Below, piece by piece: positions 2,503 through 34,045 of a stretch of 34,045 bases of DNA (position 1 is the stretch's first letter; every line of letters begins with the position of its first letter). The translations under genes were made by a program, and so were the position numbers. The notes below the pieces were generated by a model. It was given only the letters and a program-made list of their open reading frames with translations, ran no database searches and was not told where the DNA came from. Where the stretch lies: positions 1 to 34,045 of the forward strand of contig JAFYDY010000009.1 of assembly GCA_017544545.1 (NCBI GenBank), read 5' to 3'. Source of the stretch: a bacterium. Its GTDB lineage: Bacteria > Cyanobacteriota > Vampirovibrionia > Gastranaerophilales > Gastranaerophilaceae.

Positions 2503-2558
2503 AAAATAAAATTGTTACAAAAATTTACAAAAAACCCTTAAAAATAACAAGTGTTTAC

Positions 2559-6141: not shown

Positions 6142-7848
6142 ATGTCAACAAGTATTGATTATTTTGATTATATACGAATAAGTATTGCCTCTCCGGAAAG
6201 AATACTTCAATGGTCGCACGGCGAAGTTACAAAACCGGAAACAATCAACTATCGTACATTAAAACCGGAAAGAGACGGTTTATTCTGCGAAAGAATTTTC
6301 GGGCCTACAAAGGACTGGGAATGCTATTGCGGTAAATATAAACGTGTAAGACACAAAGGTATCATCTGTGAACGTTGCGGCGTTGAAGTTACAGATTCAA
6401 AAGTAAGACGTCACAGAATGGGCCACATTAAGCTTGCCGCTCCTGTTTCACATATTTGGTTTTTGAAAGGTATTCCATCATATCTTGGTTTACTTTTGGA
6501 TATGACCTTAAAAGATTTGGAACAGGTTATCTATTTCAACAGTTATGTTGTATTGGACGGCGGTGACAGCGAATTCAAAAAACTTCAACTTTTAACAGAA
6601 GAAGAATATGAAGATTATAAAGCTGAAAACGAAGAAACCACATTGAAAGTCGGTATCGGTGCAGAAGCTATTAAAGAATTATTATCAGAAATTGATATTA
6701 AGGCTTTAGCTGAAGAAATCAGAACCGAATTGGCTGACGGAACTACAGCAGTTCAAAAGAAAGCTAAATTAATCAAGAGATTAAGATTATTGGATTCTTT
6801 GATTTCTTCAGAAACAAATCCGACCTGGATGATTATGGATGTACTTCCTGTTACTCCTCCGGATTTGAGACCGATGGTACAACTTGACGGCGGACGTTTT
6901 GCAACATCTGACCTGAACGATTTGTACAGACGTGTAATTAACAGAAACAACCGTTTAGCAAGACTGCTTGATATGGGTGCTCCTGAAATTATCGTCAGAA
7001 ACGAAAAGAGAATGTTACAGGAAGCTGTTGATGCTTTGATTGATAACGGACGTCGCGGAAGAACCGTTGTCGGCCCGAATAACAGAGCATTGAAATCTTT
7101 ATCTAACATTATTGAAGGTAAACAAGGTCGTTTCCGTCAAAACCTGTTAGGTAAACGTGTTGACTACTCCGGCCGTTCAGTAATCGTTGTTGGTCCTACA
7201 CTTCAACTGAACCAATGCGGTTTGCCGAAAGAAATGGCAATTGAATTGTTCAAGCCGTTCGTTGTTAATAAACTTATTGAAAGAGGATATGTTCAAAACA
7301 TAAAATCTGCCAAGAAGAAAATTGAAAGATCCGAACACATCGTTTGGGATATCTTGGAAGAAGTAATTGACGGACATCCGGTATTATTGAACCGTGCTCC
7401 TACGCTTCACAGATTAGGTATTCAGGCTTTTGAACCAAAACTTGTTGAAGGTCGTGCAATTCAGCTTCACCCGTTAGCATGTACAGCGTTCAACGCTGAC
7501 TTCGACGGTGACCAAATGGCTGTTCACGTTCCGCTTTCAATTGAAGCTCAGGCTGAAGCAAGAATGCTGATGCTTGCAACTAACAACTTGTTAGCACCGG
7601 CTAACGGTAAACCAATTGTTACTCCATCTCAAGATATGGTTTTGGGTATGTATTACCTTACATCAGAAAACCAAAACCAAGAGCCGAAGGGTTATTTCTA
7701 CAACTTCGCTGATGCAATCGCTGCATACGAAGTAGGAGTTATTAAACTTCACGATAAAATCGTTGTCAGAGATGAAGAAAACCAAAAATTGGAAACAACC
7801 GTTGGCAGAATTATCTTCAACGAAGAAGTAAGAAAAGCGTTAGTATAA
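6142..7848 (+). CDS. rpoC1: DNA-directed RNA polymerase subunit gamma (RpoC1, N-terminal part of beta-prime)
   Basis: This 568-aa protein corresponds to the N-terminal half of beta-prime. It has the zinc-ribbon cysteines [20 protein letters not shown] (about residues 61-81), the clamp and lid/rudder regions, [17 protein letters not shown], and the catalytic Mg-binding NADFDGD motif (about residues 451-457). It ends at [16 protein letters not shown], the natural cyanobacterial break point, and the C-terminal half is a separate gene. The break is not a frameshift: there is a 47-base gap and a fresh Shine-Dalgarno for rpoC2. The start ATG follows AAAAGGAG. At 568 aa it is somewhat shorter than the roughly 620 aa I recall for photosynthetic cyanobacteria. 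Confidence 0.98.
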
Positions 7849-7895: not shown

Positions 7896-10800
7896 ATGGA
7901 AAGAACATATACAAATACTAAAAAAACTCCTGATTTCATCAACAAACAGATGGATAAAGGTTCCTTGAAAAAACTTTTAGGTCAAATGTATTTGGAATAC
8001 GGCGGTGCTAAAGCTGCAGCATTGGCTAATGCTCTTAAAAACTTGGGTTACAAATATGCAACCAAGTCAGGTACCACAATTTCAATTGCTGACCTTTCTG
8101 TTCCGGAATCCAAAAAAGAATTGTTGAAATCAGCAGAAGAAGAAATTGAAAAATCTACAAACAGATACCTAAAAGGTGAAATTACTGAAGTAGAAAGATA
8201 CACCAAGGTTATTGACACCTGGTCTGAAACAACAGCAAAATTGACAGAACAGGTTGTAGAAAACTTTGATAAATTGAATCCGGTATATATGATGGCTTTC
8301 TCCGGAGCCCGTGGTAACTTATCACAGGTATCACAGCTGGTCGGTATGAGAGGTTTGATGGCTGATGCACAAGGTCAAATCATCGACTTGCCGATTAAAT
8401 CAAACTTTAAAGAAGGCTTGTCTGTTACTGAATACATTATTTCATCATACGGTGCACGTAAAGGTCTTGTAGATACAGCGTTGAAAACAGCTGACTCAGG
8501 ATACTTAACCAGACGTTTGGTTGACGTTGCACAAGACGTAATAATCAGAGCTGACGATTGTCATACTGATAAATATATCAATATGAAACCGATTACCGAC
8601 GGTGATACAATTATTGTTCCGTTGATTGACAGATTACTGGGCAGAACAGTTGCTCAGGATATCGTTGATGCTGACGGTAAAGTTGTTGTTCCGAACGGTA
8701 AAACAATGGACAGAGATGATATCAAAGAAGTTTCAAAACTTGATTTGAAGGAATTGAAAGTTCGTTCAGGTTTAACTTGCGGTTTGGAATACGGTGTATG
8801 CCAAAAATGTTACGGTTGGGCAATGACCACTCAAAAACTTGTTGATATCGGTGAAGCTATCGGTATTATTGCAGCTCAATCAATCGGTGAACCCGGTACA
8901 CAGCTGACAATGAGAACCTTCCACACAGGTGGTGCTGTCGGCGTTAAAGAAGCTAAGAAAGAAATTATAGCTCGTGAAGCCGGTACCGTTATTTCTAAGA
9001 TTAAAGCAAGAGAATTAAGAACTCGTCACGGTGATGTTGTTAATGTTTCTATGTATGAAGCTGATATCGAAATTAAAGGCGAAAAAAGAACAACAAAATA
9101 TCACATACCTGCCGGTGCAACATTGTTTGTAACCGACGGTATGAAAGTTTCAAAAGGCTTCAAGATAGCAGAACATGCTCCGTCATCTCAAAGTGATAGT
9201 TCACGTCTTACAGAAAAAGCTACAAAAGATATCACAACCGATATTTCAGGTGAAATCGTATTTGAAGATTTTAAAGCTGACGAAAAGAAAGACAGACAGG
9301 GTAACGTTTCAAGAACATCAAACAAACAAGGTATTATTTGGGTTCTTGGCGGTGATGTTTATACTCTGCCAGGCGGTTCTGAAGTTCTTGTAAAAGACGG
9401 TCAGAAGGTTTCTGAAGGCGAAAAATTAGCTGAAGCTGAAACAAAATCCGAACACGGCGGTGAAGTAAGAATCGGTGACGATTTAGTTGTTGAAGATGCT
9501 AAATTTGACGGCAAAAAGATTAAAAAGATTGTTTCCGGTAAAGAATTAACTATCGTAATCGCTTCTATGCAGCCAAAGAACGCATCTTTTGAACAAACTA
9601 AAAAAGAACAGCTTTGGACAGTTGATAAAACCGGTGAAAAATATATCGTTAAAGCTCCTGTTGATACAACAGTTGAAAACGGTATGATTATCGCCGAACT
9701 TATAAGTGACGATTGCGCTGTTTCATCATCAGGTGAAATCAGATACGTTGACGTTGAAGTTGATGATAACCAAATCATCACAAAACCGGGCAGCGTTGTA
9801 TTTATTCCTGAAGAAATTCACCAAATCAACAAAGATGCAACTTTGAAAATGGTAGAAAACGGAACAGCCGTTACTGCCGGAACTGAAGTTGTAAAAGACG
9901 TATACTGCCACATTGACGGTATTGTTGAATTTAAGGAATACAACGATGTAATTCACGAAGTTACAATTCGTCCGGGACAAGTTCACACCTTATCAAGCAT
10001 TTCTGAATTGAAAGTTGATGAAGGCGAAGTAATCAAAAAAGGTACGGTAATTGCTGACGGAATTAAAGCCAAAGCAACTTCAATCGTTACCATTATGGAT
10101 TCTTCAGTGGATGATTTGGCAGCATTAGATGAATTAGACGAGGAATTAGACTCATCACTTGCTTTAGATGATGAATCAATTACAAACCAACCTGTACAAA
10201 TCCTTGTAAGACCTGTTCAGGTATTGGAAGTTAATGAAAAAGAAGTTTCTATTGACTTCACCTCATCTGATGATTTGATCAATATCGTTCCTGTAACACA
10301 ACTTCAATATAAAGATGGTGCAAGAGTAAGAAATGTTGAAGGCGCAACTTTGACAAGAACAAGTCTTGTTCTTCAAATGCAGGGTTACCTGTCACACCTT
10401 AAAGGTATGGTTGAACTTGACTCCAAAGGCGAATTGAGAATCGTTGTATTGGAAAACCTCATTGTTCGTCGTGAAACAGAAGGTTCTGCTCATTCATCAT
10501 TACAAACTGAATTGCTTGTTAAAAACGGTCAGATAATTGAACCGAAAACAGCTGTTGCAAAAACACAAGTTCTTGCAATGCATGATGCTGTTGCTTCAAT
10601 TAAAAATACCGAAGCTGAAACAAGAAGATTGTTGTTAATCTCTGACAATTCTTCAACTGATGTAAAAATCAAAGGTAAGGCAACAGTTAAGAAAGGTTCA
10701 TTTGTTAAAGCCGACAGTGTTATTACCGAAAGTGGAGAAAAAGCTCCTGTTTCGGGTATTGTTACAGAAACAAGCAAAACCGGTATAACAATCAGAAACG

Positions 10801-11753
10801 GTCGTCCGTATTTGATTAGCCCAGGTACAATGCTGTTGATTGATTCAGGCTCTTTAGTATTAAGAGGTGACTTGTTGGCAACATTAGTATTTGAAAGAGA
10901 AAAAACAGGCGATATCGTTCAAGGTTTGCCTAAAGTTGAAGAACTTTTGGAAGGAAGAAAACCAAAAGATTGTGCAATTTTAGCAGAATATGACGGTACT
11001 GCAAAAATAGAAATCGATGACGACGGCTTACCGAGATTATTCCTGGAAGATGCTGACGGTGCTTCCACAGAAATCAAATATGCCATCGATTCTAACATCA
11101 TCGTTTCAAACGGACAGAAGATTACAAAAGGTGAGGCCCTTACTTCCGGACCTTTGAACCCGCACGATGTTATGAGATTATGCGGACCTGAAGCAGCACA
11201 ACAATACCTGGTTGATGAAGTACAACGTGTATATCGTTCACAAGGTGTTGAAATTGCTGATAAACACATTGAAATTATCGTTCGTCAAATGACTAAGAAA
11301 GTTCGTGTAGTTGATGCAGGTGATACTAATTTGTTACCTGGCGAACTGATTGAAGTTCAGACATTTGAAAAAGAAAATAAAGCTGCAGAAGAAGCAGGAA
11401 AAGCACCTGCAACTTGTGAATACATGTTGTTAGGTATTACAAAAGCTTCATTGAACACTGAAAGCTTTATTTCAGCAGCATCATTCCAGGAAACAACAAG
11501 AATCCTTACAGAAGCTGCTGTTGAGGGTAAAAAAGACTTGTTGAGAGGTTTGAAAGAAAACGTTATTATTGGTCGTCTGATACCGGCAGGTACAGGTTTC
11601 CATCATCTTATCAATGCTGATGAAGAACGCGACAGAGAAGAAAGAAAACGCGCTGTTGCACAAAGAAATCAAGCAAGAAAACCGTCTGCAATTTTGGAAG
11701 AAATTGAAGGCATGTTCGGTGCTCCTGATTTCAATCTTGACGATGAAGAATAA
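7896..11753 (+). CDS. rpoC2: DNA-directed RNA polymerase subunit beta-prime (RpoC2) with large trigger-loop insertion
   Basis: This 1285-aa protein is the C-terminal half of beta-prime. It opens with [19 protein letters not shown], then the bridge-helix region [20 protein letters not shown] and the secondary zinc site [14 protein letters not shown] (about residues 294-307). The first half of the trigger loop is [20 protein letters not shown] (about 328-347). The second half resumes only at [19 protein letters not shown] (about residue 1006). Between them lie about 650 residues of repeated beta-rich modules, equivalent to the cyanobacterial SI3 insertion. Inside it (about 736-762) is a very acidic Asp/Leu-rich stretch. 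The C-terminus has the [15 protein letters not shown] and [12 protein letters not shown] segments expected near the omega contact. The product joins RpoB and RpoC1 in the core enzyme. Confidence 0.98.
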
Positions 11754-24194: not shown

Positions 24195-24578
24195 CTTACA
24201 CACTCCTTGAAATTTTCTGATTACTTTTTTTATATCGGAATGTTTTTTCTGAAACTTTAGAGTTTTTGGTCAATTTGTTACATATATTAACAATGAGTAA
24301 AAACAAGAGTTTGAGAGAGTTTTAATTTTAACCCTTTCCTCTTTTTGTTCAAATTTACATTCAAAACACTAGAAAAATCGCAGCATATAGTTTATACTAT
24401 AAGTGTAGTAGATGTGTGAATATCGGTTTCTTGTGTATGCAGGGATATTCCCTCTGTTTGCAGTATTGTATTAATGTACAAATGAGGTAAAATTGTATCA
24501 TAATGTAAAAAATATGAGACAAAACGTCAAATATTTTTTATCACAAGATTTAAAGTAGAAAAGTTGTAGGTAGACCTT
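24195..24578. other. Long intergenic region with inverted repeats
   Basis: This 384-base A/T-rich gap lies between divergent genes and has no credible ORF. TTGTTA (24275-24280) and TAACAA (24288-24293) form an operator-like inverted repeat with a 7-base spacer. AGGGA/TCCCT (24441-24445 with 24449-24453) is a small hairpin near the right-hand promoter. I looked for a c-di-GMP riboswitch because of the downstream gene and saw no match to its conserved core. Confidence 0.5.
24466..24493 (+). promoter_or_regulatory. Candidate promoter of the c-di-GMP gene
   Basis: TTGTAT (24466-24471), a 16-base spacer and TAAAAT (24488-24493). The start site near 24500 leaves a leader of about 80 nt. Confidence 0.5.
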
Positions 24579-26576
24579 TTGGACAAATTAGACAAAAAAA
24601 GTACCAATAGAACGAAATCTAAGGACAAAAAATCCTTAAATTCAAATCCCATCAGCAAGGCAAAAATTCCTGCTGATGCAATCAAGATGATTTCTGTTCC
24701 GAAAAAAGCCGCTGCCTCAACAGAAACTTCAAAACTTAAAGAAACAAAACAACAATTAGAAAACACGATAAAACCTATTTCCATTACGGAAGATACAAGC
24801 CTTGACAGTATTGTAGAAACAATTAACAATTTCAATACTTCTAAAACAAGGCCGAGGATGTATGCTGATAAAACCTACAACGCAACAACAAACACTATAA
24901 AAAGAAATGTCAATTATTTTGAAATAATGACAGATTTGTCGGATGCCTTCAACAATAACAAGAACATGGTGGATTTATTCGGGAAATTGACAAACATCTT
25001 TATAGGTAAATTACAATGGAATTTTGCCGGATTTGGCTTGTTCCACGAAAAATCAAAATGTATAAATCTGAAATTGTTCTCCAAAACCGGTAATACATAT
25101 ACTTCAAAAGTATTTCTGTCAGATGAATATAACCCGATTATAGAATGTTTCAACACAAAAGAAACCATAACGAAAGATAACATAAATTATCTGAATATAC
25201 CGTATCTTGTTAAAACAAGCTCGGTTATTGTCCCGATGATATCTGTTAATAAGTGTATCGGAATAATGATTATCGGACAGAGTGCAGCCAACATAAATAC
25301 AAATCTCTCGACGTTTATTGCAAATTATATGGGAATGTACATCCACAACCTGCAACTACAGGAACAGACCAACAAGTTTGCAAATACGGATAACCTTACA
25401 TCTTTGTACAACCACAGAGGTTTTCAGGAAGTTTTGGCAAAAGAGCTGGCTAAAGCAAAAGACAGCAACACACCTTTGTCCGTTGTTATGTTTGATGTAA
25501 ACAATATCTCCAAAATAAACAGAGAACTCGGTCACGCAAAAGGTGATGAAGTAATCAAGACTATTGCGGAAAAAATTAAACAAAATATAAGGGCAAACGA
25601 TTCGGCAGGTCGTTATGGCGGAGATGAAATCGCCGTTATCATGCCGGAAACAGACACCAAAGATGCAAAATATCTGGCAGAATATATCACATATTGCCTG
25701 TCATGCTGTTTTGTGGACGACGTAGGACCGATTAAGGTTTCTGTCGGTGTTTCAACATATCCGGAATGCACAATAGATCAAGAAAAATTATTAATATTGG
25801 CAGAACAGGCAATGTTTATATCTCAGGCAAAAGGTTATAAAGAAGGCATGTCCGCAATCGTAAGTTCTTCAGACTTTAATTTCTGGGATGATATGGCATT
25901 AGAATCCTTTGCGGGAGTTCTTGCAAAACGTCATGCCCAAATTGGTATAAACTTTGAAGAAGAACTTGTTCATAAGTTTAATCAGGAAGAAATAATTAAC
26001 CACAATCACTTGATTGAAATGGTTACATCACTGGCAGGCGCTATTGATGCAAAAGACCCGTATACAAAAGGTCACTCTACATCTGTTTCAAGATACTCAG
26101 AGGCTCTGGCTCGTGCAATAAATCTTCCTGAAGCTGAAGTTGAAAGAATTAAAATTGGTGCTATGCTTCACGACGTCGGCAAAATCGGTATTCCCGAAAG
26201 CGTTTTGAAAAAGCCGGGTAAACTTGACGACGAAGAATGGCAAATTATGAAACAACACCCGACAATCGGTGCTGAAAAAGTTCTTGCGCCTAATGAAGCG
26301 TTGAGGGATTTAATTCCTATTGTTAAATACCACCACGAAAGACTCGACGGAAAAGGTTATCCTGAAGGTTTGAAAGGGGAAGAAATTCCGCTTGCTGCAA
26401 GAATCGTATCTGTTGCCGATGCATATCACGCTCTGGTAAGCGACAGACCTTACAGAAAAGGTATGCCTATTGAAAAAGCCTGCGCAATCTTGAAAGAAGG
26501 TGCCGGAGTTCAGTGGGATGCCGATTTGGTTCGCAGCTTCATTTCTATTGCTCCGTCTTTAACAACAAAAGTGTAA
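24579..26576 (+). CDS. GAF-GGDEF-HD-GYP hybrid c-di-GMP signalling protein
   Basis: This 665-aa cytoplasmic protein has a Lys/Ser/Thr-rich disordered start (1-100) and a GAF-like sensor domain (about 115-260). The GGDEF domain has active-site GGDE at 347-350 and a product-inhibition RxxD (R338-A-N-D341) exactly five residues upstream. The HD-GYP domain has KGHS, H531-D532, QHP, HHE (585-587), DGKGYP (590-595) and VADAYHAL. Both catalytic sites look complete, so it could both make c-di-GMP and degrade it, with the GAF ligand setting the balance. The start is TTG 24579 with a weak AGG eight bases upstream; the next Met is at residue 37. There is no membrane segment. It is monocistronic, and a palindromic element follows the stop. 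Confidence 0.95.
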   Translation: MDKLDKKSTNRTKSKDKKSLNSNPISKAKIPADAIKMISVPKKAAASTETSKLKETKQQLENTIKPISITEDTSLDSIVETINNFNTSKTRPRMYADKTYNATTNTIKRNVNYFEIMTDLSDAFNNNKNMVDLFGKLTNIFIGKLQWNFAGFGLFHEKSKCINLKLFSKTGNTYTSKVFLSDEYNPIIECFNTKETITKDNINYLNIPYLVKTSSVIVPMISVNKCIGIMIIGQSAANINTNLSTFIANYMGMYIHNLQLQEQTNKFANTDNLTSLYNHRGFQEVLAKELAKAKDSNTPLSVVMFDVNNISKINRELGHAKGDEVIKTIAEKIKQNIRANDSAGRYGGDEIAVIMPETDTKDAKYLAEYITYCLSCCFVDDVGPIKVSVGVSTYPECTIDQEKLLILAEQAMFISQAKGYKEGMSAIVSSSDFNFWDDMALESFAGVLAKRHAQIGINFEEELVHKFNQEEIINHNHLIEMVTSLAGAIDAKDPYTKGHSTSVSRYSEALARAINLPEAEVERIKIGAMLHDVGKIGIPESVLKKPGKLDDEEWQIMKQHPTIGAEKVLAPNEALRDLIPIVKYHHERLDGKGYPEGLKGEEIPLAARIVSVADAYHALVSDRPYRKGMPIEKACAILKEGAGVQWDADLVRSFISIAPSLTTKV

Positions 26577-26584
26577 ACCAACGG

Positions 26585-26610
26585 AAAAGCCATAGAGGTT
26601 ATCTATGGCT
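26585..26610. repeat. Hairpin after the c-di-GMP gene, copy 2 of AAAAGCCATA element
   Basis: AGCCATAGA (26588-26596) pairs perfectly with TCTATGGCT (26602-26610) around GGTTA. The left arm, with its AACG-AAAAGCCATA context, closely resembles the element at 23611. No T run follows, so it is a weak terminator candidate at best. Confidence 0.55.
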
Positions 26611-26636
26611 CACATAAATTTCAGGGTTACACACAT

Positions 26637-26873
26637 TTACGCAGTTTTTCTTTGTTCTTCAGGCTCCCCTATAGTCTGAATTAATATGTCGATTACCTTC
26701 GGCATTTGACAAATAAAAGAATAATTTCCCTGACTGAGAGAACATTTCTTACAGTCACAGTTTATTGAGTAGCACTCAAGAGCCTGCTCTGTCCAATTTT
26801 GTGTGATTGAATCAGACATCTCATCGTTTGCGGGACTATATAAATCTACGTTTTCAGATATTATTCTGTCCAT
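26637..26873 (-). CDS. Small Cys-rich protein, 78 aa
   Basis: ATG 26873 has a strong GGAG six bases upstream. A TTG at 26930 would add 19 residues (including a CPNG) but has poorer signals. The core is NWTEQALECYSINCDCKKC followed by a further Cys at 55. The spacing C34-x4-C39-x-C41-x2-C44-x10-C55 looks like a small metal (Zn or Fe-S) site. The WTEQA-ECY-CxCxxC pattern reminds me of a small motif in clostridial and melainabacterial proteins, but I cannot name a family. The C-terminus, KVIDILIQTIGEPEE, is helical. It is transcribed against the c-di-GMP gene and ends about 60 bases after its stop. Confidence 0.65.
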   Translation of the reverse strand: MDRIISENVDLYSPANDEMSDSITQNWTEQALECYSINCDCKKCSLSQGNYSFICQMPKVIDILIQTIGEPEEQRKTA

Positions 26874-26991
26874 GCTACTCTCCAAGATTTTTAAAAGATC
26901 ACCATTAGGGCATGTATACTCGCCACCCAATCTTATTTTAAAGTATTAAGACTTCTTTTCAATCCTCTGTTTAATGTATTTCCTTTAGAAT

Positions 26992-27020
26992 TTGCTTTTA
27001 AAAAGTTTTTTCAGTAAAAT
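26992..27020 (+). promoter_or_regulatory. Promoter of the 27048-fabG block
   Basis: TTGCTT (26992-26997), a 17-base spacer and TAAAAT (27015-27020). The start site near 27027 leaves about 20 bases before ATG 27048, enough for the AAAAGGAG Shine-Dalgarno. This probably drives the small ORF, DUF177, rpmF and possibly the fatty-acid genes. Confidence 0.7.
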
Positions 27021-27047
27021 AGTTGTACTTAGCAAAAGGAGAAATTT

Positions 27048-27302
27048 ATGGCACAACAATTTAATCCAAACGCACAAAATATTAAAATACGTTATGCTGT
27101 TTTGGTATTCTTAAAAGGCTCAACTGCTCCGTTGGTTTTGTATGTAAACGAATATATGGATCTTTACCGTGAATTGTCGGAATATATGAAATCAAATCAG
27201 GCTGTTGTTATTGAAAAAGAAACCGAAGGGCCTTTAAAGAAAGTGTGCTTCGCCTCCAATCAAATTGCTGCAGTTGCAATTCAGGAAGAACAATATTTAT
27301 AA
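27048..27302 (+). CDS. Hypothetical small protein leading the rpmF-fab block, 84 aa
   Basis: I do not recognise this family. The ATG follows AAAAGGAG. It looks like a compact alpha/beta fold: KIRYAVLVFLKG strand, PLVLYVNEYMDLYRELSEYM strand plus helix, AVVIEKETEG strand, and CFASNQIAAVAIQEEQYL strand. It has one Cys and no signal peptide. The stop codon is two bases before the next ATG, which suggests translational coupling with the DUF177 gene and a role linked to ribosome or lipid gene expression; that link is inference. Size and layout suggest a small regulatory or RNA-binding protein, but nothing proves this. Confidence 0.75.
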   Translation: MAQQFNPNAQNIKIRYAVLVFLKGSTAPLVLYVNEYMDLYRELSEYMKSNQAVVIEKETEGPLKKVCFASNQIAAVAIQEEQYL

Positions 27303-27304
27303 AA

Positions 27305-27808
27305 ATGAAAACCATTTTATCACTGGACGAACTGGAAAATAGCGAACATAAAACACTATACTTTACTTTCAATGAAAAAATTGAAGGTCTGAATTGTGTT
27401 ACCCCGATACACGCACAATTATGTGCAAAATCTCTGGAGGATTTTGTACAAATTACAGGAAATGTTAAAGGAAAAGTTTTACTTGAATGCGATTTATGTT
27501 TGGATAAATTTGAATATGATGTTGATTTTGAACTTGATGAGATGTTCTCAAAAGGTTCACTAATAGGCGATTACACAGAATCGGGACAAGAGTTTGAAAT
27601 CAAAGACGGACAATTTGTTACAGATTTGAACGGAGAAAATGAAATAGATATTTATGACTTATTGTATCAATCCGTAATATTAAGTTTCCCAAATAAAAAA
27701 GTTTGTGGTATTAATTGTAAAGGGAAGGAATATCTAACCGAAGAAAATGATATCACTGATCCAAGACTGGAAGTCTTTAATAATCTCCAAATTAACCCAA
27801 AAAAGTAG
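27305..27808 (+). CDS. yceD: DUF177 (YceD/Rlm-type) protein upstream of rpmF
   Basis: This 167-aa YceD/DUF177-family protein has the hallmark VLLECDLCLDKFEYDVDFELDEMF (a CxxC followed by acidic strands) and a second Cys pair, CGINCKG, near the C-terminus. Members almost always precede rpmF and are implicated in 23S rRNA or ribosome maturation. The start is ATG 27305, two bases after the previous stop; its only Shine-Dalgarno-like GGAAG is about 17 bases away, so coupling is likely. rpmF starts 70 bases after its stop. Confidence 0.92.
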   Translation: MKTILSLDELENSEHKTLYFTFNEKIEGLNCVTPIHAQLCAKSLEDFVQITGNVKGKVLLECDLCLDKFEYDVDFELDEMFSKGSLIGDYTESGQEFEIKDGQFVTDLNGENEIDIYDLLYQSVILSFPNKKVCGINCKGKEYLTEENDITDPRLEVFNNLQINPKK

Positions 27809-27878
27809 TGTTGATTGAATTTTAATTCATCACACGTTGTAAAAGACAGTTAGTACATGAAATAAAAAGGAAAGAAAA

Positions 27879-28259
27879 ATGGCAGTACCAAAGAAAAGAA
27901 CAGGACATTCGGCTCAGGGAAGCAGAAGAGCTAATTGGAAAGCTACCAAACCGACAACAACAAAATGTCCTAATTGCGGCGCTACAGTTCTGGCACATAC
28001 AGTATGCACAGTTTGCGGAACTTACAAAGGTCAGCCCGTAAAATTAGCAGATAAAGCTGCAGCAGCAATGGCAGCTGAACCGGCTAAAAAAACTGTAAAG
28101 AAAGCTGAAACAGCTACAAAAGCTACTCCGGAAGCAGAAAAAGTTGAAAAGACTGAAAAAGCTGCAAAAACCACAAAAACCACAAAAACTACAAAGTCTA
28201 CTAAGACTGCAAGTGCAGCAAAAACAACAAAGGCTAAAGCTAAAAAGACAGAAGAATAA
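27879..28259 (+). CDS. rpmF: Large ribosomal subunit protein bL32 with long Lys/Ala/Thr tail
   Basis: The first 60 or so residues are standard bL32: MAVPKKRTGHSAQGSRRA followed by the zinc ribbon CPNCGATVLAHTVCTVCG (Cys pairs at about 29/32 and 43/46). bL32 is usually 55-65 aa; this protein is 126 aa. The added 65 or so residues are low-complexity KAETATKATPEAEK and TTKTTKTTKSTKTASAAK, like a histone-H1-type tail. The coding DNA there is a near-tandem ACAAAAACC repeat. The start follows AAAAAGGAAAG. The gene lies between DUF177 and plsX, the common conserved order. Function in the 50S subunit is certain for the core; the tail is unexplained. Confidence 0.96.
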   Translation: MAVPKKRTGHSAQGSRRANWKATKPTTTKCPNCGATVLAHTVCTVCGTYKGQPVKLADKAAAAMAAEPAKKTVKKAETATKATPEAEKVEKTEKAAKTTKTTKTTKSTKTASAAKTTKAKAKKTEE

Positions 28260-28267
28260 CAGAGATG

Positions 28268-28298
28268 AGAGTGAAGTGAAATAATTTCACTTCACTCT
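28268..28298. repeat. Perfect 14-bp inverted repeat between rpmF and plsX
   Basis: AGAGTGAAGTGAAA (28268-28281) and TTTCACTTCACTCT (28285-28298) are exact inverted arms with a 3-base TAA loop. There is no T run, so it is not a plain terminator. It sits 26 bases before the plsX ATG. It could be an RNase processing hairpin or an operator for the fatty-acid genes. Confidence 0.8.
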
Positions 28299-28324
28299 GA
28301 TAATTCTTATCAAAAGGGGAGAGT

Positions 28325-29389
28325 ATGGCAAGAATCGCAATAGATGCAATGGGCGGAGATTACGCACCAAGAACTATAGTAGAAGGAGCATTGTGGGCGG
28401 CACAGGAATATGGTGTCGGTCTGGAACTTGTCGGAAGACAAGATGAAATTCAGGCAGAAATTGACCGAATTAAATCTGCCGGTTACATTCTTTCTGATTG
28501 CGGAACAAAAGGTCATAAAAGAAGAATTAAAATTGATGTAGACACTATTGATTATACAATCAGTCACGCTAACGAAGTTATCGGTATGGGAGAAGCCGTC
28601 GGACAATCTATTCGCAGAAAACAGGATTCCTCCATTGTTGCAGCTGTCAAAGCTGTAGCCGAAGGCAGATGTGAAGCTGTTGTATCAGCCGGCTCAACAG
28701 GTGCGGCAATGGCTGCAAGTTTGTTTGGCTTAGGCAGAATCCACGGTGTTACAAGACCTGCAATTGCAGTTACCCTTCCGACTATGGGAAAACCTGTTGT
28801 ACTGATTGATGGTGGTGCAAACAGTGATTGTACCGCTGAGATGCTTGCTCAATTTGCAGAAATGGGTTTGGTTTATGATGAAGACATCGTTGGAGTTGAA
28901 AACCCAAGAGTCGGAATTTTGAGTATCGGCGAAGAAGAAGGTAAAGGTAATGCTTTAGTTAAAGAAGCATATCCTCTATTGAAAGATTTACATGAACAGG
29001 GCAGAATTAATTTTGTCGGAAATATTGAAGGAAAAGAATTGTGCATAAACAAAGCTGACGTTGTTGTTTGTGACGGTTTTGCCGGAAATATTGCATTAAA
29101 AGTAACCGAAGGTACTGCATCACTGTTGATAAAAATGATTTCAACTGAATTTAAGTCTGATTTAATCGGTTGTATTGTCGGCTTGATGGCAAAACCTGTT
29201 TTAAGAAGAATTTTAAAACGAACTAACTGGGAAGGCTTTGGCGGCATGCTTTTATTAGGTGTCAAAGGAATCTCGGTTATCGCTCACGGAAGAAGTTCAT
29301 CTTACGCTATGAAAAACGCCGTACGGGCTGCCGTAAGAGTTCTGAACAAAGATATAAATTCAAAAATCGCAGAAAAGATAAACAGATAG
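28325..29389 (+). CDS. plsX: Phosphate acyltransferase PlsX
   Basis: This 354-aa enzyme converts acyl-ACP and phosphate to acyl-phosphate, the acyl donor for PlsY in phosphatidic-acid synthesis. It opens with RIAIDAMGGDYAPRTIVEG. Also visible are the SIRRKQDSSIVAAVKAVAEG region, VSAGSTGAAMAAS, NPRVGILSIGEEEGKG, FVGNIEGKELC, VCDGFAGNIALKVTEG and the C-terminal LLGVKGISVIAHGRSS. It is slightly longer than typical (about 330-345). The start ATG has AAAAGGGGAG upstream. It is followed by fabH after 9 bases; plsX-fabH-fabD-fabG-acpP-fabF is a classic conserved order. Confidence 0.97.
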   Translation: MARIAIDAMGGDYAPRTIVEGALWAAQEYGVGLELVGRQDEIQAEIDRIKSAGYILSDCGTKGHKRRIKIDVDTIDYTISHANEVIGMGEAVGQSIRRKQDSSIVAAVKAVAEGRCEAVVSAGSTGAAMAASLFGLGRIHGVTRPAIAVTLPTMGKPVVLIDGGANSDCTAEMLAQFAEMGLVYDEDIVGVENPRVGILSIGEEEGKGNALVKEAYPLLKDLHEQGRINFVGNIEGKELCINKADVVVCDGFAGNIALKVTEGTASLLIKMISTEFKSDLIGCIVGLMAKPVLRRILKRTNWEGFGGMLLLGVKGISVIAHGRSSSYAMKNAVRAAVRVLNKDINSKIAEKINR

Positions 29390-29398
29390 GAAATAATT

Positions 29399-30412
29399 AT
29401 GTCCAGCAGTATAAAACCATTAAGAATAGCAGGAATCGGATATTGTGTACCGAGCACGGTAATCACTAATGACGATTTGACAAAGCTTTATGATACATCT
29501 GATGAATGGATTTATACAAGAACAGGCATAAAAGAACGCAGAGTTGTTTCAGGAAATGAAACTGCCATCGATTTGGGATTGGATGCAGCTAAAAAAGCTC
29601 TCAAAAAATCAGGATTTAAACCGGAAGATATTGATTGTGTTATCTCTGCATCATCAGCTCCCCCGCAGCTATATCCTACAATGGCATGTACTATTCAGGA
29701 TAAATTGGGAATTCCGGGTAATATTCCGGCTTTTGATATTACTGCTGCGTGTACCGGTTTGATTTATGCTCTTCAGATTGCAAGAGGTTTTATCGGAATC
29801 GGAATATACAAAACAATCCTGATTCTTGCAGCTGATAACAACTCAAAAATTACAGACTGGAATGACAGAGGAACATCAATTCTGTTTGGCGACGGAGCGG
29901 GGGCAATGGTTGTGACTGAAGCTCTTGACGGAGTTGATGATATACTTGCACTGAATATGAGTGCAAACGGTACTATCGGACAACTTATTTTTACCGATAT
30001 GCCGGGTCAAAATTGCCCACTGGTAACACCAAACAATTATGTTGGTGACGGCAAAATCCATATGAACGGAAAAGAAGTTTATAAATTTGCTGTTACAACC
30101 GTTCCTAAATATGTTGAAGAATGCATTGCATCAGCAGGAATGAAAGCGGAAGACGTAGATTATTTAATTCCGCATCAGGCAAACCAAAGAATTATAGAAG
30201 CAATACAATCCAGATTGAAATATTCTGATGAAAAGGTTATTTCTAATATAAAATATTACGGAAATACTTCGGCAGCTTCTATTCCGATTGCATTAGGAGA
30301 AGGAGTTGAACAGGGTAAAATAAGACTCGGATCAACTGCCGTACTTTGCGGATTCGGTGCCGGTATGACATGGGGTGCTGCTGTTGTTCGCCTCAGAGAA
30401 GGTATTTGTTAG
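29399..30412 (+). CDS. fabH: Beta-ketoacyl-ACP synthase III
   Basis: This 337-aa condensing enzyme starts fatty-acid synthesis by joining acyl-CoA and malonyl-ACP. The catalytic triad is visible: Cys118 in DITAACTGLIYAL, His in YLIPHQANQR (about residue 255) and Asn in YYGNTSAASIP (about 284). EWIYTRTGIKERR is the substrate-channel segment and GFGAGMTWGAAVVR closes the protein. The start ATG follows AGGAAATAATT. It lies between plsX and fabD, with a 25-base gap to fabD. Confidence 0.97.
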   Translation: MSSSIKPLRIAGIGYCVPSTVITNDDLTKLYDTSDEWIYTRTGIKERRVVSGNETAIDLGLDAAKKALKKSGFKPEDIDCVISASSAPPQLYPTMACTIQDKLGIPGNIPAFDITAACTGLIYALQIARGFIGIGIYKTILILAADNNSKITDWNDRGTSILFGDGAGAMVVTEALDGVDDILALNMSANGTIGQLIFTDMPGQNCPLVTPNNYVGDGKIHMNGKEVYKFAVTTVPKYVEECIASAGMKAEDVDYLIPHQANQRIIEAIQSRLKYSDEKVISNIKYYGNTSAASIPIALGEGVEQGKIRLGSTAVLCGFGAGMTWGAAVVRLREGIC

Positions 30413-30437
30413 GAAGATTAGTTTATAGGGATATAAT

Positions 30438-31385
30438 ATGACAAAAAAAATAGCATTTTTGTTTCCGGGACAGGGTTCACAATCTGTCGGAATGGGAAAA
30501 GATTTATATGATAGTTACCCCGCAGCAAAAGAAATTTTTGATACTGCCGATAAGGTTTTGGGAAAAAGTATTTCAAACATATGTTTTTGCGGACCGGAAG
30601 ACGATTTAAAATTGACAATAAACACTCAGCCTGCAATTGTAACAACATCAATAGCAGCTTTAGAAGCTTTAAAATCCGAATTTGATATTACACCGACATG
30701 CACAGCCGGTCACAGTTTGGGTGAATATTGTGCTATGTATGCCTCAGGAGTTATGAATTTAGAAACAACCCTGAAGGCAATTCAAAAAAGAGCCAACCTG
30801 ATGAGCGAAACAAAAGGCGGAGCTATGGCTGCAATATTAAACGCACCCGAAGGAAGTCTTGAAAAAGCTTTGGAAGAAGCATCTTCTATCGGTTATGTTG
30901 ATGTTGCAAATTATAATTCACCCGTTCAGGTTGTAATAACAGGCGATGAGGCAGCTGTTTCAAAAGCAGGCGAGCTTTTATCAGCAGCCGGAGCAAGAAG
31001 AGTTGTACCTCTAGCTGTTTCCGGAGCTTTCCATTCAAAATATATGGAACAGGCCGGTGAAAAATTTAAAGAATTTGTTTCTGAACTGGAAATAAATAAT
31101 GCACAAGTTCCGGTATTTACAAACGTTGATGCTTCCGCAACTATATTGGGGGCTGAATTTAAAAATAAAATACCAAGACAGATTTATTCATCAGTTCAGT
31201 GGACAAAAACCATTCAAAATATGATAAAAGACGGGGTTGATACATTTATTGAAATCGGGCCGGGGAAAGTTCTTTCCGGTTTGGTCAGAAAAATTGAACC
31301 TGATGTCACAACATACAACATCTATGACAAAAATTCTCTGGAAGAAGTAGTATCATCTTTAAAAGAGGAATTAACAAAGGTATAA
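30438..31385 (+). CDS. fabD: Malonyl-CoA:ACP transacylase
   Basis: This 315-aa enzyme loads malonyl groups onto ACP. Motifs are the N-terminal FLFPGQGSQSVGMG, nucleophile Ser93 in AGHSLGEYCAM, the GGAMAAIL segment, SGAFHSKYM with the catalytic His near residue 197, and FIEIGPGKVLSGLVRKI. The start ATG has a weak AGGGAT upstream. It lies within the plsX-fabG block; fabG follows after 43 bases with its own AAGGAGAAAG. Confidence 0.97.
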   Translation: MTKKIAFLFPGQGSQSVGMGKDLYDSYPAAKEIFDTADKVLGKSISNICFCGPEDDLKLTINTQPAIVTTSIAALEALKSEFDITPTCTAGHSLGEYCAMYASGVMNLETTLKAIQKRANLMSETKGGAMAAILNAPEGSLEKALEEASSIGYVDVANYNSPVQVVITGDEAAVSKAGELLSAAGARRVVPLAVSGAFHSKYMEQAGEKFKEFVSELEINNAQVPVFTNVDASATILGAEFKNKIPRQIYSSVQWTKTIQNMIKDGVDTFIEIGPGKVLSGLVRKIEPDVTTYNIYDKNSLEEVVSSLKEELTKV

Positions 31386-31428
31386 GGTATAGTGCAATTA
31401 TTTGCACCGAAAATAAGGAGAAAGTAAT

Positions 31429-32160
31429 ATGACAGAAAGAAAAATTGCTTTAATTACAGGCGGCTCCCGCGGTATAGGTTTTAGCTGTGCAAAAGAACTT
31501 GCCGTGAACGGTTGCGATATCATTATCAATGATATTTGCGATGCTGCTACAGCACAGCCGGCTATTGATGAGATTAAAGCACTTGGAGTTAATGCTTGGT
31601 TTTACCAGTTTGACGTTTCTAATGACGAACAGGTTAAGGCAGCTGTTGACAAAATGATTGAAGAACACGGTCACATCGATATTCTTTTGAACAATGCCGG
31701 TATCACAAAAGACGGTTTGTTCTTGAGAATGGATGCTGAACAATGGGAAAGAGTTATAAAAATCAACCTTGGATCAGCATATTATGTAACACACGCAGTT
31801 ATTAAGTATATGATGAAAGCTCGTCAGGGTTCTATTATCAATATGTCATCCATTGTCGGTGTTCACGGAAACGCAGGTCAGGCAAATTATTCTGCTTCAA
31901 AAGCAGGTTTGATTGGCTTAACAAAAACTCTTGCAAAAGAATTCGGTTCAAGAAACATCAGAGTAAACGCAGTATGTCCCGGATTTATCCAAACAGCAAT
32001 GACTGCTAACCTCGGTAATATTGAAGAATACGCAAAAGCAATACCTATGCAAAGATTTGGCACACCCGAAGATATTGCTAAAGTTGTTAAGTTCTTGGCT
32101 CTTGATACAGACTATGTAACAGGGCAAGCTATTGAAGTTGCAGGCGGTTTGATGTTATAA
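31429..32160 (+). CDS. fabG: 3-oxoacyl-ACP reductase
   Basis: This 243-aa short-chain dehydrogenase reduces 3-ketoacyl-ACP with NADPH. Motifs are ALITGGSRGIGFSCAKEL (cofactor-binding TGxxxGxG), NNAGITKDGLFLRM, the catalytic Ser-Tyr-Lys (MSSIVGVHG, then YSASKAG) and the substrate-loop CPGFIQTAMT. The C-terminus VTGQAIEVAGGLML is typical. A strong AAGGAGAAAG precedes the ATG. It is the last gene before the separate acpP promoter, 113 bases away. Confidence 0.97.
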   Translation: MTERKIALITGGSRGIGFSCAKELAVNGCDIIINDICDAATAQPAIDEIKALGVNAWFYQFDVSNDEQVKAAVDKMIEEHGHIDILLNNAGITKDGLFLRMDAEQWERVIKINLGSAYYVTHAVIKYMMKARQGSIINMSSIVGVHGNAGQANYSASKAGLIGLTKTLAKEFGSRNIRVNAVCPGFIQTAMTANLGNIEEYAKAIPMQRFGTPEDIAKVVKFLALDTDYVTGQAIEVAGGLML

Positions 32161-32170
32161 TTCTCAACCG

Positions 32171-32186
32171 TTACAAATATTTGTAA
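32171..32186. promoter_or_regulatory. Perfect 16-bp palindrome just upstream of the acpP promoter
   Basis: TTACAAATATTTGTAA is an exact palindrome whose end lies 5 bases before the -35 of acpP (about -56 to -41 from the predicted start). This is an operator or activator position. It does not match the FapR (TTAGTAC-) or FabT (TTTGAT-) consensus as I know them. Confidence 0.6.
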
Positions 32187-32191
32187 ATTTC

Positions 32192-32220
32192 TTGCAAAAA
32201 AATATTCATAGGGTTATAAT
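32192..32220 (+). promoter_or_regulatory. Strong promoter of acpP
   Basis: TTGCAA (32192-32197), an exact 17-base spacer and a perfect TATAAT (32215-32220). The start site near 32227 leaves about 47 bases before the acpP ATG. It is the best sigma70-type match in the lipid block and explains high acyl-carrier output. Confidence 0.85.
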
Positions 32221-32273
32221 ATAACCGAAATAGTATTAGTAATACAATTTAAAATTAAAGAGGAAAAGAAAAA

Positions 32274-32510
32274 ATGAGTACATTAGACACAGTAAAAAAA
32301 GTTGTAGTAGATCAATTAAGCGTAGATGAAAAATTAGTTACACCTGAAGCTCGCTTTACAGATGATTTGGGTGCTGATTCTTTAGATACAGTTGAATTGG
32401 TTATGGCTTTAGAAGAAGAATTCAAGTGCGAAATCCCTGATGAAGACGCAGAAAAAATTCAAACAGTTCAAGATGCTGTATCATACATTGACAGCAAATT
32501 AGGTAAGTAA
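32274..32510 (+). CDS. acpP: Acyl carrier protein
   Basis: This 78-aa acidic four-helix ACP has the 4'-phosphopantetheine attachment Ser36 in [20 protein letters not shown]. Length, acidity and the C-terminal [14 protein letters not shown] are standard. The ATG follows AGAGGAAAAG. It has its own promoter and upstream palindrome, and a terminator-like hairpin precedes fabF. That arrangement is expected to give much more ACP than FabF. Confidence 0.98.
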
Positions 32511-32555
32511 TTATCTCACTAATTTGAGTTTTTTAATTGAATTTATTATATTTAT

Positions 32556-32594
32556 AAATGCGGGTGTGAGATACGTTTTCATATCCGCATTTTT
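32556..32594 (+). terminator. Partial terminator/attenuator between acpP and fabF
   Basis: AAATGCGG (32556-32563) pairs with CCGCATTT (32585-32592), and an inner GTGTGA/TCATAT helix with wobble pairs extends it. A short T run follows. It probably trims most acpP transcripts while allowing some read-through into fabF, for which I see no clear promoter. Confidence 0.65.
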
Positions 32595-32627
32595 ATCAAA
32601 GTTTAAATATTTAATAAGGATATATTT

Positions 32628-33884
32628 ATGAACAAAAGAAGAGTAGTAATTACCGGCTTAGGAGTAGTAACCCCATGCGGTATCGGGATGAAAGATTTTT
32701 GGAACAGTATGGTTGAGGGGAAAAGCGGAGTCTCCCTTATTGAAAGAATTGATACCGAAAAACAGGCAGTAAAAATTGCTGCAGAAATTAAAGATAAAGA
32801 TTTTAACCCTGAAGATTATATAGACCCCAAAGAAGCAAAAAGAATGGACAGATTCACTCAATTTGGTGTTGTTGCAGCAAATGAAGCTATTGCAGATGCC
32901 AAATTAGACGAAGCAGGATATGATCCATACAGAATTGGTGTTTTGGTTAGTTCTGCGGCCGGTGGATTTCATACTTTTGAGAAAAATCACCTGATTATGA
33001 TGGAAAAAGGCCCGACAAAAGGCTCTCCTTTTACGGTTCCTATGTTAATCGTAGATATGGCATCCGGCAGAATTTCTATCCAACACGGATATAAAGGTGT
33101 AAACAAAGTAGTTGTATCAGCTTGTGCAACCGGAACTCATTCTATAGGAGATGCGTTCCGTTCTATTCAGTATGGTGATGCAGATGCAATGGTAGCAGGA
33201 GGCTGCGAAGCAACAATTACCACCTTGGGTATTGGTGCATTTACGGCATGCCGTGCATTATCAAAAAGAAATGATGAGCCGCAAAAAGCATCCAGACCTT
33301 ATGATGTTGATAGAGATGGATTTATAATGGGTGAAGGTGCTGCTGTTATGGTTCTTGAAGAATATGAACACGCAAAAACTCGCGGTGCAAAAATATATGC
33401 CGAAATCGTCGGTTACGGTCAAACTGCAGATGCTCACGATATTGTAGCTCCGGATCCAGAAGGTAAAGGTGCAAAAAAATCAATGGAATTTGCTCTTGCA
33501 GATGCCGGCATGAAGCCTGAGGATATTGATTATATCAACCCACACGGAACAAGTACAGGTTTGGGAGATATGGCAGAATCACAGGCTATTGAACAAATTT
33601 TCGGTGATAAAGAAAAGAATCCGAACTTGTTAGTAAGTTCAACAAAGAGTATGCACGGCCATATGCTTGGTGCAACAGGTGCTGTTGAGGCTATCGTTTG
33701 TACAAAAGTTATTACAGATGGTATTGTTCCTCCAACAATTAACCTTGACCATCAGGATGAACATTGTGCAAACTTAGATTATGTACCGCATAAAGCAAGA
33801 CAAAAGAAAGTCCGTGCAGCACTTTCAAATTCATTCGGTTTTGGCGGACACAACACAACGTTGATCTTCAAAGAAGTACAATAA
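32628..33884 (+). CDS. fabF: Beta-ketoacyl-ACP synthase II
   Basis: This 418-aa KAS II enzyme elongates acyl-ACP. The catalytic Cys-His-His set is present: Cys166 in SACATGTHSIGDAFR, His in NPHGTSTGLGD (about residue 307) and His in KSMHGHMLGATGAVEA (about 344). The opening RRVVITGLGVVTPCG and closing SNSFGFGGHNTTLIF are family hallmarks. The Shine-Dalgarno is modest (AAGGAT, 7 bases before the ATG). It is the last gene of the lipid block and ends at a strong terminator. Confidence 0.98.
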   Translation: MNKRRVVITGLGVVTPCGIGMKDFWNSMVEGKSGVSLIERIDTEKQAVKIAAEIKDKDFNPEDYIDPKEAKRMDRFTQFGVVAANEAIADAKLDEAGYDPYRIGVLVSSAAGGFHTFEKNHLIMMEKGPTKGSPFTVPMLIVDMASGRISIQHGYKGVNKVVVSACATGTHSIGDAFRSIQYGDADAMVAGGCEATITTLGIGAFTACRALSKRNDEPQKASRPYDVDRDGFIMGEGAAVMVLEEYEHAKTRGAKIYAEIVGYGQTADAHDIVAPDPEGKGAKKSMEFALADAGMKPEDIDYINPHGTSTGLGDMAESQAIEQIFGDKEKNPNLLVSSTKSMHGHMLGATGAVEAIVCTKVITDGIVPPTINLDHQDEHCANLDYVPHKARQKKVRAALSNSFGFGGHNTTLIFKEVQ

Positions 33885-33901
33885 TTGCAAATATATAGTT
33901 G

Positions 33902-33931
33902 AAAAAACCTCTCATATACGAGAGGTTTTTT
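33902..33931. terminator. Bidirectional terminator after fabF
   Basis: AAAAAACCTCTC (33902-33913) and GAGAGGTTTTTT (33920-33931) form a perfect 12-bp stem with a 6-base loop, with A and T runs on the two sides. It serves fabF and the convergent transporter. Confidence 0.93.
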
Positions 33932-33932
33932 A

Positions 33933-34045
33933 TTATCTGCTTACACTCTTTTTGAACAAGAATAATAACGGTATCAGAGCAAAACATAAGAAACCGAAGA
34001 TTCTGAAAGAATCCATAAATGCCCACAAGGTAGACTGTTTAAGCA
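33933..34045 (-). CDS. MFS drug transporter (EmrB/DHA2 type), C-terminal fragment
   Basis: The frame leaving the right edge encodes the last 37 residues and stops at 33933-33935. The tail reads QSTLWAFMDSFRIFGFLCF, then ALIPLLFLF and KKSVSR. This is the last transmembrane helix of 14-helix DHA2/EmrB-type multidrug exporters, which typically have QA-x3-AY-x-D-x-F before it. It uses the terminator shared with fabF. The family call rests on this short piece only. Confidence 0.7.
   Translation of the reverse strand, partial: LKQSTLWAFMDSFRIFGFLCFALIPLLFLFKKSVSR

Follow-up and report, generated by a model that had tools for sequence, protein, structure and literature searches.

A palindrome beside the acpP promoter of a Gastranaerophilaceae bacterium as a possible variant arrangement of HLR1-like half-sites

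Results

A perfect palindrome lies directly upstream of the predicted acpP promoter in a 34,045-base stretch of Gastranaerophilaceae DNA, which was analysed as a whole and is called the window here. We suggest that the acpP promoter has a conserved, helically phased activator region, which in this one species is arranged as a palindrome. It would consist of KTTACAWW-like half-sites, on either strand, for a response regulator of the OmpR/PhoB family, and the RpaB orthologue encoded by the Gastranaerophilales genome would be their most likely reader. We put the probability that this is a phased RpaB-type activator site, palindromic by chance in one species, at roughly 0.5.

The acpP promoter and its surroundings

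The window comes from a 1.09-Mb, 66%-complete assembly. Melainabacteria/Gastranaerophilales have been characterised as relatives of cyanobacteria that lack photosynthesis (PMC3787301). Pfam annotation around the palindrome gave the gene order yceD, ribosomal L32, plsX, fabH, fabD, fabG, acpP, fabF, all in one direction. The features used below are as follows.

2514-2531, plus strand: exact HLR1 GTTACAAAAATTTACAAA, 240 bp upstream of the rpoB ATG at 2772
32170-32177, plus strand: left box GTTACAAA, 8/8 match to the HLR1 half-site KTTACAWW
32171-32186, no strand: perfect 16-bp palindrome TTACAAATATTTGTAA
32180-32187, minus strand: right box TTTGTAAA, which reads TTTACAAA on the minus strand, 8/8 match to KTTACAWW
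32192-32197, plus strand: predicted -35 hexamer TTGCAA of the acpP promoter
32215-32220, plus strand: predicted -10 hexamer TATAAT of the acpP promoter
32233-32245, plus strand: short inverted repeat GTATTAGTAATAC, GTATT-loop-AATAC, in the predicted acpP 5' leader
32274-32510, plus strand: acpP, acyl carrier protein of 78 aa

The first-pass annotation had described a perfect palindrome ending 5 bases before the -35 hexamer of a near-consensus promoter, and both parts of this description were confirmed: the gap between the 3' end of TTACAAATATTTGTAA and TTGCAA is 5 bp, and TTGCAA is separated from TATAAT by 17 bp. Transcription is predicted to start at about 32227.

Two boxes are conserved upstream of acpP

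Within the genus, the DNA upstream of acpP retains two boxes, T(T/A)ACAA and TTGTAAA, with a variable spacer between them. In 28 distinct congeneric promoters the consensus has AGTAAAGATTTTTAACAAA followed by variable sequence and then by TTGTAAATTTC and TTGCAAAAAAATATT, the last 15 bases being taken from the alignment rows. In mean majority frequency, the left box reached 0.89 and the right box 0.92, compared with 0.55 for the spacer and 0.50 for the DNA further upstream, and conservation continued through the -35 box into TTGCAAAAAAATATT. These column frequencies cover 28 of the 32 distinct congeneric promoters (the window, L045, L007 and L011 were excluded). L052, a putative member of the genus, was also kept out of the column frequencies and was included with the genus in the half-site shuffle count. 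L051, which has no upstream DNA, and L122 and L132, for which the wrong start had been used, were excluded from every count.

As read from the sequence, the arms of the palindrome correspond to these two boxes. In the other congeneric species the boxes usually stand 9 bp further apart than in the window, and most left boxes read KT-A-ACAA, which deviates from KTTACAWW at one base. The pattern KTWACAAW-N12-TTGYAAA was found 107 times in 46 congeneric genomes vs 19 times in the control, a count that mixes acpP promoters with other places. The candidate TTGTAAANNNCTTGCAAA, with up to two mismatches, exceeded its reversed control in 6/6 genomes, but it was rejected with 23-69 matches per genome as too loose for naming targets.

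Conservation was then followed into other genera. Forty-one genera were searched and 30 were represented among the matches listed, with one promoter each. Exact KTTACAWW on either strand occurred 22 times in 29 other genera, vs 6.9 in 200 shuffles (sd 2.4, maximum 15). Exact half-sites numbered 0.76 per 115 nt in the acpP segments vs 0.23 in other intergenic DNA, the acpP segments being more AT-rich (24% vs 31% GC). For the forward boxes 29 of the 30 genera were used, L191 having no promoter model; forward KTWACAWW boxes occurred 18 times in these 29 vs 2.8 in 500 shuffles (maximum 8). The genera share ancestry, and such family counts are not independent.

The forward boxes were phased. Relative to the -10 box, seven started at -53/-54, seven at -42/-43 and one at -32, and the remaining ones were that of the window at -45 and two others at -57 and -62. 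The period was near 11 bp and was equalled by none of 20,000 uniform draws; the -54 and -42 classes are one helical turn apart. From this spacing against the core promoter we infer that it would fit a protein touching the polymerase. Twelve of the 29 genera lacked a forward box within the span examined, which ends at -32, and four of these twelve have one at -30 or -31.

Such a conserved, phased and AT-rich region might also be a UP-element-like stretch of a strong promoter, read by the C-terminal domains of the RNA polymerase alpha subunit. Those domains likewise bind in helical-turn steps upstream of -40, acpP is usually highly expressed, and the region of the boxes, very AT-rich at 24% GC, adjoins the -35 box, through which its conservation extends into TTGCAAAAAAATATT. 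UP elements are, however, A/T runs without fixed C or G, whereas the ACAA and TTGTAAA cores retain C and G and the equally AT-rich spacer varies. The box words also match a half-site motif that is abundant genome-wide and intergenic (see below). We consider a UP element an unlikely explanation of the boxes.

The palindrome arms match the half-site of HLR1

HLR1, the site of the cyanobacterial light-response regulator RpaB, is the direct repeat KTTACAWW-N2-KTTACAWW, and it is reported to activate in cyanobacteria when located at about -45 to -66 (PMC13421787). At acpP both arms matched KTTACAWW at 8/8 positions, on opposite strands. Counted from the -10 box, the left box begins at -45 and the right box, which is conserved in the genus, at -35. 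Relative to the estimated start the left box begins at about -57, and the two boxes together span about -57 to -40 from this predicted start. The full definition of HLR1, with both halves direct and a 2-bp gap, does not describe acpP, whose second half has the opposite orientation and where no direct match is better than 14/16. A direct match of 14/16 was reached in 57/1000 shuffles of the same segment and was present at 8 places in the window, acpP included. We classed acpP as an HLR1-like variant because of the inverted half, the common 14/16 match, the unenriched inverted pairs, the genera without boxes and the left boxes that are off by one base. The chances seem to us about even that acpP carries HLR1-like half-sites in this variant form, with RpaB as their most likely reader.

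Exact HLR1 was abundant in the genus, with 795 matches in 46 congeneric genomes vs 92 control matches, and above the control in 46/46. When G007 and G226, in which repeats inflate or may inflate the count, were left aside, there were 740 matches vs 84. Among 77 genomes sampled from the class, the counts were 369 vs 68 in the 19 genomes of the own family and 103 vs 26 in the remaining 58, where many genomes had none. In G007, the sites L221, L222, L225, L231, L232, L245, L247 and L248 had one shared flanking pattern, in which -10-like hexamers on the opposite strand stand at constant distances; this looks like a dispersed repeat carrying HLR1.

The exact sites were almost always intergenic: 66/67 scored sites, vs 380/2244 random places in the same loci. 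The loci taken were 12/12 from G000, 16/16 from G009, 28/28 from G007 and 12/21 from G015, 68 in total, and one (L228 of G007) was too near a contig end to be scored. The stricter ORF rule placed 1/67 sites under an ORF (L225) and counted L197 and L209 as intergenic, and the looser rule placed 2/28 inside an ORF (L197 and L209). Distances from the 67 exact sites to -10-like hexamers were spread, with no sharp peak.

Genes downstream of exact HLR1 in the genus were rpoB, tuf, rpsA, fabI, aroQ, purA, thyX and pyruvate:ferredoxin oxidoreductase. These names are the best NCBIfam matches; tuf, aroQ and thyX were over the curated cut-off and the others below it, four of the latter being compared as fragments or divergent from the models. 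The orthologous rpoB promoter of G007 (L223, about 940-957) carries the site reversed, so the orientation of HLR1 may be flexible.

Elsewhere in the window, two 15/16 HLR1-like matches, at 24277-24294 (plus strand) and 24492-24509 (minus strand), were found upstream of an ORF of 665 aa at 24579. The size and place of the two ORFs after rpoB, 6142-7848 (568 aa) and 7896-11753 (1285 aa), suggest the split rpoC1/rpoC2 of cyanobacteria.

The same genome encodes RpaB

An RpaB protein is encoded in the genome that carries the palindrome, by a gene at 976-1749 of locus L115. It scored 361.7 bits with the curated equivalog NF045944 (cut-off 330), a cut-off exceeded in 137/146 sampled genomes of the phylum. 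The protein scored as RpaB and not as YycF (226 bits with the YycF model, cut-off 340), and it was about 70-71% identical to 30 fetched RpaB sequences. It keeps 15/18 residues of what we take, from the fold, to be the recognition-helix segment. Homologues of RpaB, RpaA and NblS were reported in Melainabacteria in 2013, possibly with another function there (PMC3787301).

Two further OmpR-type regulators (L116 and L117) were present in the genome, with 213.5 and 200.6 bits, below the RpaB cut-off of 330. Related regulators can share similar sites, and one of these ORFs, or a different DNA-binding protein, might read the boxes. The half-site word is that of RpaB, however, and RpaB keeps most of its presumed recognition segment, so we regard another reader as less likely still than the UP element.

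If RpaB is the reader, it would contact RNA polymerase from its place immediately upstream of the -35 box and increase the transcription of acpP in parallel with that of rpoB, tuf, rpsA and fabI, genes that have exact HLR1 in the genus. We infer RpaB binding at acpP, the sign of regulation, the transcription start and the signal.

The palindrome as one proposed arrangement of the boxes

The left box of the window, at -45, is outside the usual -42/-43 and -54 classes. It is 9 bp off the usual congeneric place and 2-3 bp off the -42/-43 class of other genera, as would be expected if the left arm were a chance word without function here and the right box and core promoter alone did the work. The left box is nevertheless a full 8/8 half-site, and the acpP promoter of L045 has a similar close box pair, the sole congeneric parallel to the palindrome. 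It is very unlikely, in our judgement, that the left arm has no function. In a FabF tree the window and L045 fell within one fork without resolution, where one and two origins of the close spacing are indistinguishable.

Symmetry was assessed separately. TTACAAATATTTGTAA is the sole perfect 16-bp palindrome in the window, and dinucleotide shuffles of the window contained 0.97 of them on average (at least one in 61/100). The symmetry by itself is therefore at chance level and does not speak for a function. In the genome the exact 16-mer is present a single time, with 0 places at one mismatch and 4 further places at two; this makes 5 forward matches with up to two mismatches vs 3 for the reversed control. 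Within the window, 4 matches with up to three mismatches were found vs 1.02 in shuffles, and one of the other three, at 2515-2530, sits within the exact HLR1 before rpoB. The relaxed palindrome KTTACAWW-N2-WWTGTAAM showed no clear enrichment in the genus, with 23 sites (in 15 of 46 congeneric genomes) vs 18 in the reversed control. Apart from that of the window, none of the 32 distinct congeneric acpP promoters contained the exact palindrome. Two perfect facing KTTACAWW boxes with a 2-bp gap appeared in the 115-nt acpP upstream segment in 1/5000 shuffles, a test whose motif was picked after the fact. We rejected the palindrome as a genome-wide operator, given the single exact word, the relaxed form near its control and the chance-level symmetry.

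The first-pass annotation had suggested that the palindrome may be the operator of an undescribed lipid regulator, and had proposed phylogenetic footprinting upstream of acpP and a search of the genome for similar sites near lipid genes. Footprinting gave partial support, in that the region is conserved and the arms lie within conserved boxes; the palindrome itself is not conserved in congeners, and the count of palindrome-like sites stayed near the control. Although its symmetry is perfect, its arms adjoin the -35 box and facing half-sites are rare in shuffles of the segment, an operator of an undescribed dimeric lipid regulator is highly improbable in view of the chance-level symmetry for this window size, the absence of the palindrome from congeneric promoters (except the similar pair in L045) and the relaxed form near control. 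The boxes would be better explained by the described regulator RpaB, because its site is abundant, intergenic and located before general growth genes as well as the lipid gene fabI.

An inverted repeat in the acpP leader

A stem of GTATT/AATAC or GTGT-ATT-ACAC was present in 28/32 distinct congeneric acpP leaders, the GTGT/ACAC version being that of L007 and L011. Loops in the congeneric relatives were 3-7 bases long and varied in sequence. Since the stem is kept with variable loops, the repeat points more to an RNA stem close to the 5' end than to a DNA site, possibly a guard of the mRNA 5' end. An Rfam search over 26500-34045 gave zero matches. Between acpP and fabF, a terminator-like inverted repeat (32559-32589, TGCGG...CCGCA followed by a T run) was observed, and similar hairpins were present in congeneric loci. 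In L007 the promoter stretch upstream of acpP was tandemly doubled with a single N between the copies, which is either a duplication or an assembly scar.

Discussion

Beyond acpP, we hold it possible, at somewhat less than even odds, that RpaB with its HLR1 site is an active global regulator of growth genes in gut bacteria that are non-photosynthetic relatives of cyanobacteria. Its targets would include RNA polymerase beta, EF-Tu, ribosomal protein S1 and enoyl-ACP reductase, with acpP reached via inverted or single half-sites. If this is true, the light/redox regulator of photosynthesis would be a growth regulator of older origin in its photosynthetic form, or it would have been rewired in this lineage. 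The genus-wide excess of intergenic HLR1 supplies a concrete target list, including the rpoB site and the acpP boxes in the window, and therefore makes the question of RpaB function in Melainabacteria directly testable. Within the literature searched, nothing was found on RpaB together with acpP, the RpaB-HLR1 and RpaB-Melainabacteria literature had no overlap, and a search for Gastranaerophilales and fatty acids gave nothing useful.

The acpP site can be compared with several known systems. The operators of FapR and FabT are palindromic and located at fatty-acid-synthesis promoters. The acpP site shares their palindromy, and its sequence differs by eye from their consensuses. The WalR/YycF box of Bacillota is the direct repeat TGTWAH-N5-TGTWAH. 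WalR/YycF belongs to a related regulator family, and the right box plus the -35 hexamer reads TGTAAA-N5-TGCAAA, but the second half of the acpP sequence is one base off, and the direct repeat is incomplete. The WalR box was rejected as a candidate, since its relaxed pattern (with Y allowed) was unenriched in the own genome, 28 vs 24 in the control. Published work exists on YycF and pneumococcal genes of fatty acid synthesis (PMC4996995).

Compared with HLR1, the second half at acpP is inverted and the boxes stand 9 bp further apart in other congeners, and the lineage is described as non-photosynthetic (PMC3787301). What acpP shares with the HLR1/RpaB system of photosynthetic cyanobacteria is the half-site sequence, the 2-bp gap in the window and the place just upstream of the -35 box, in a genome that encodes RpaB and carries exact HLR1 elsewhere, including before rpoB.
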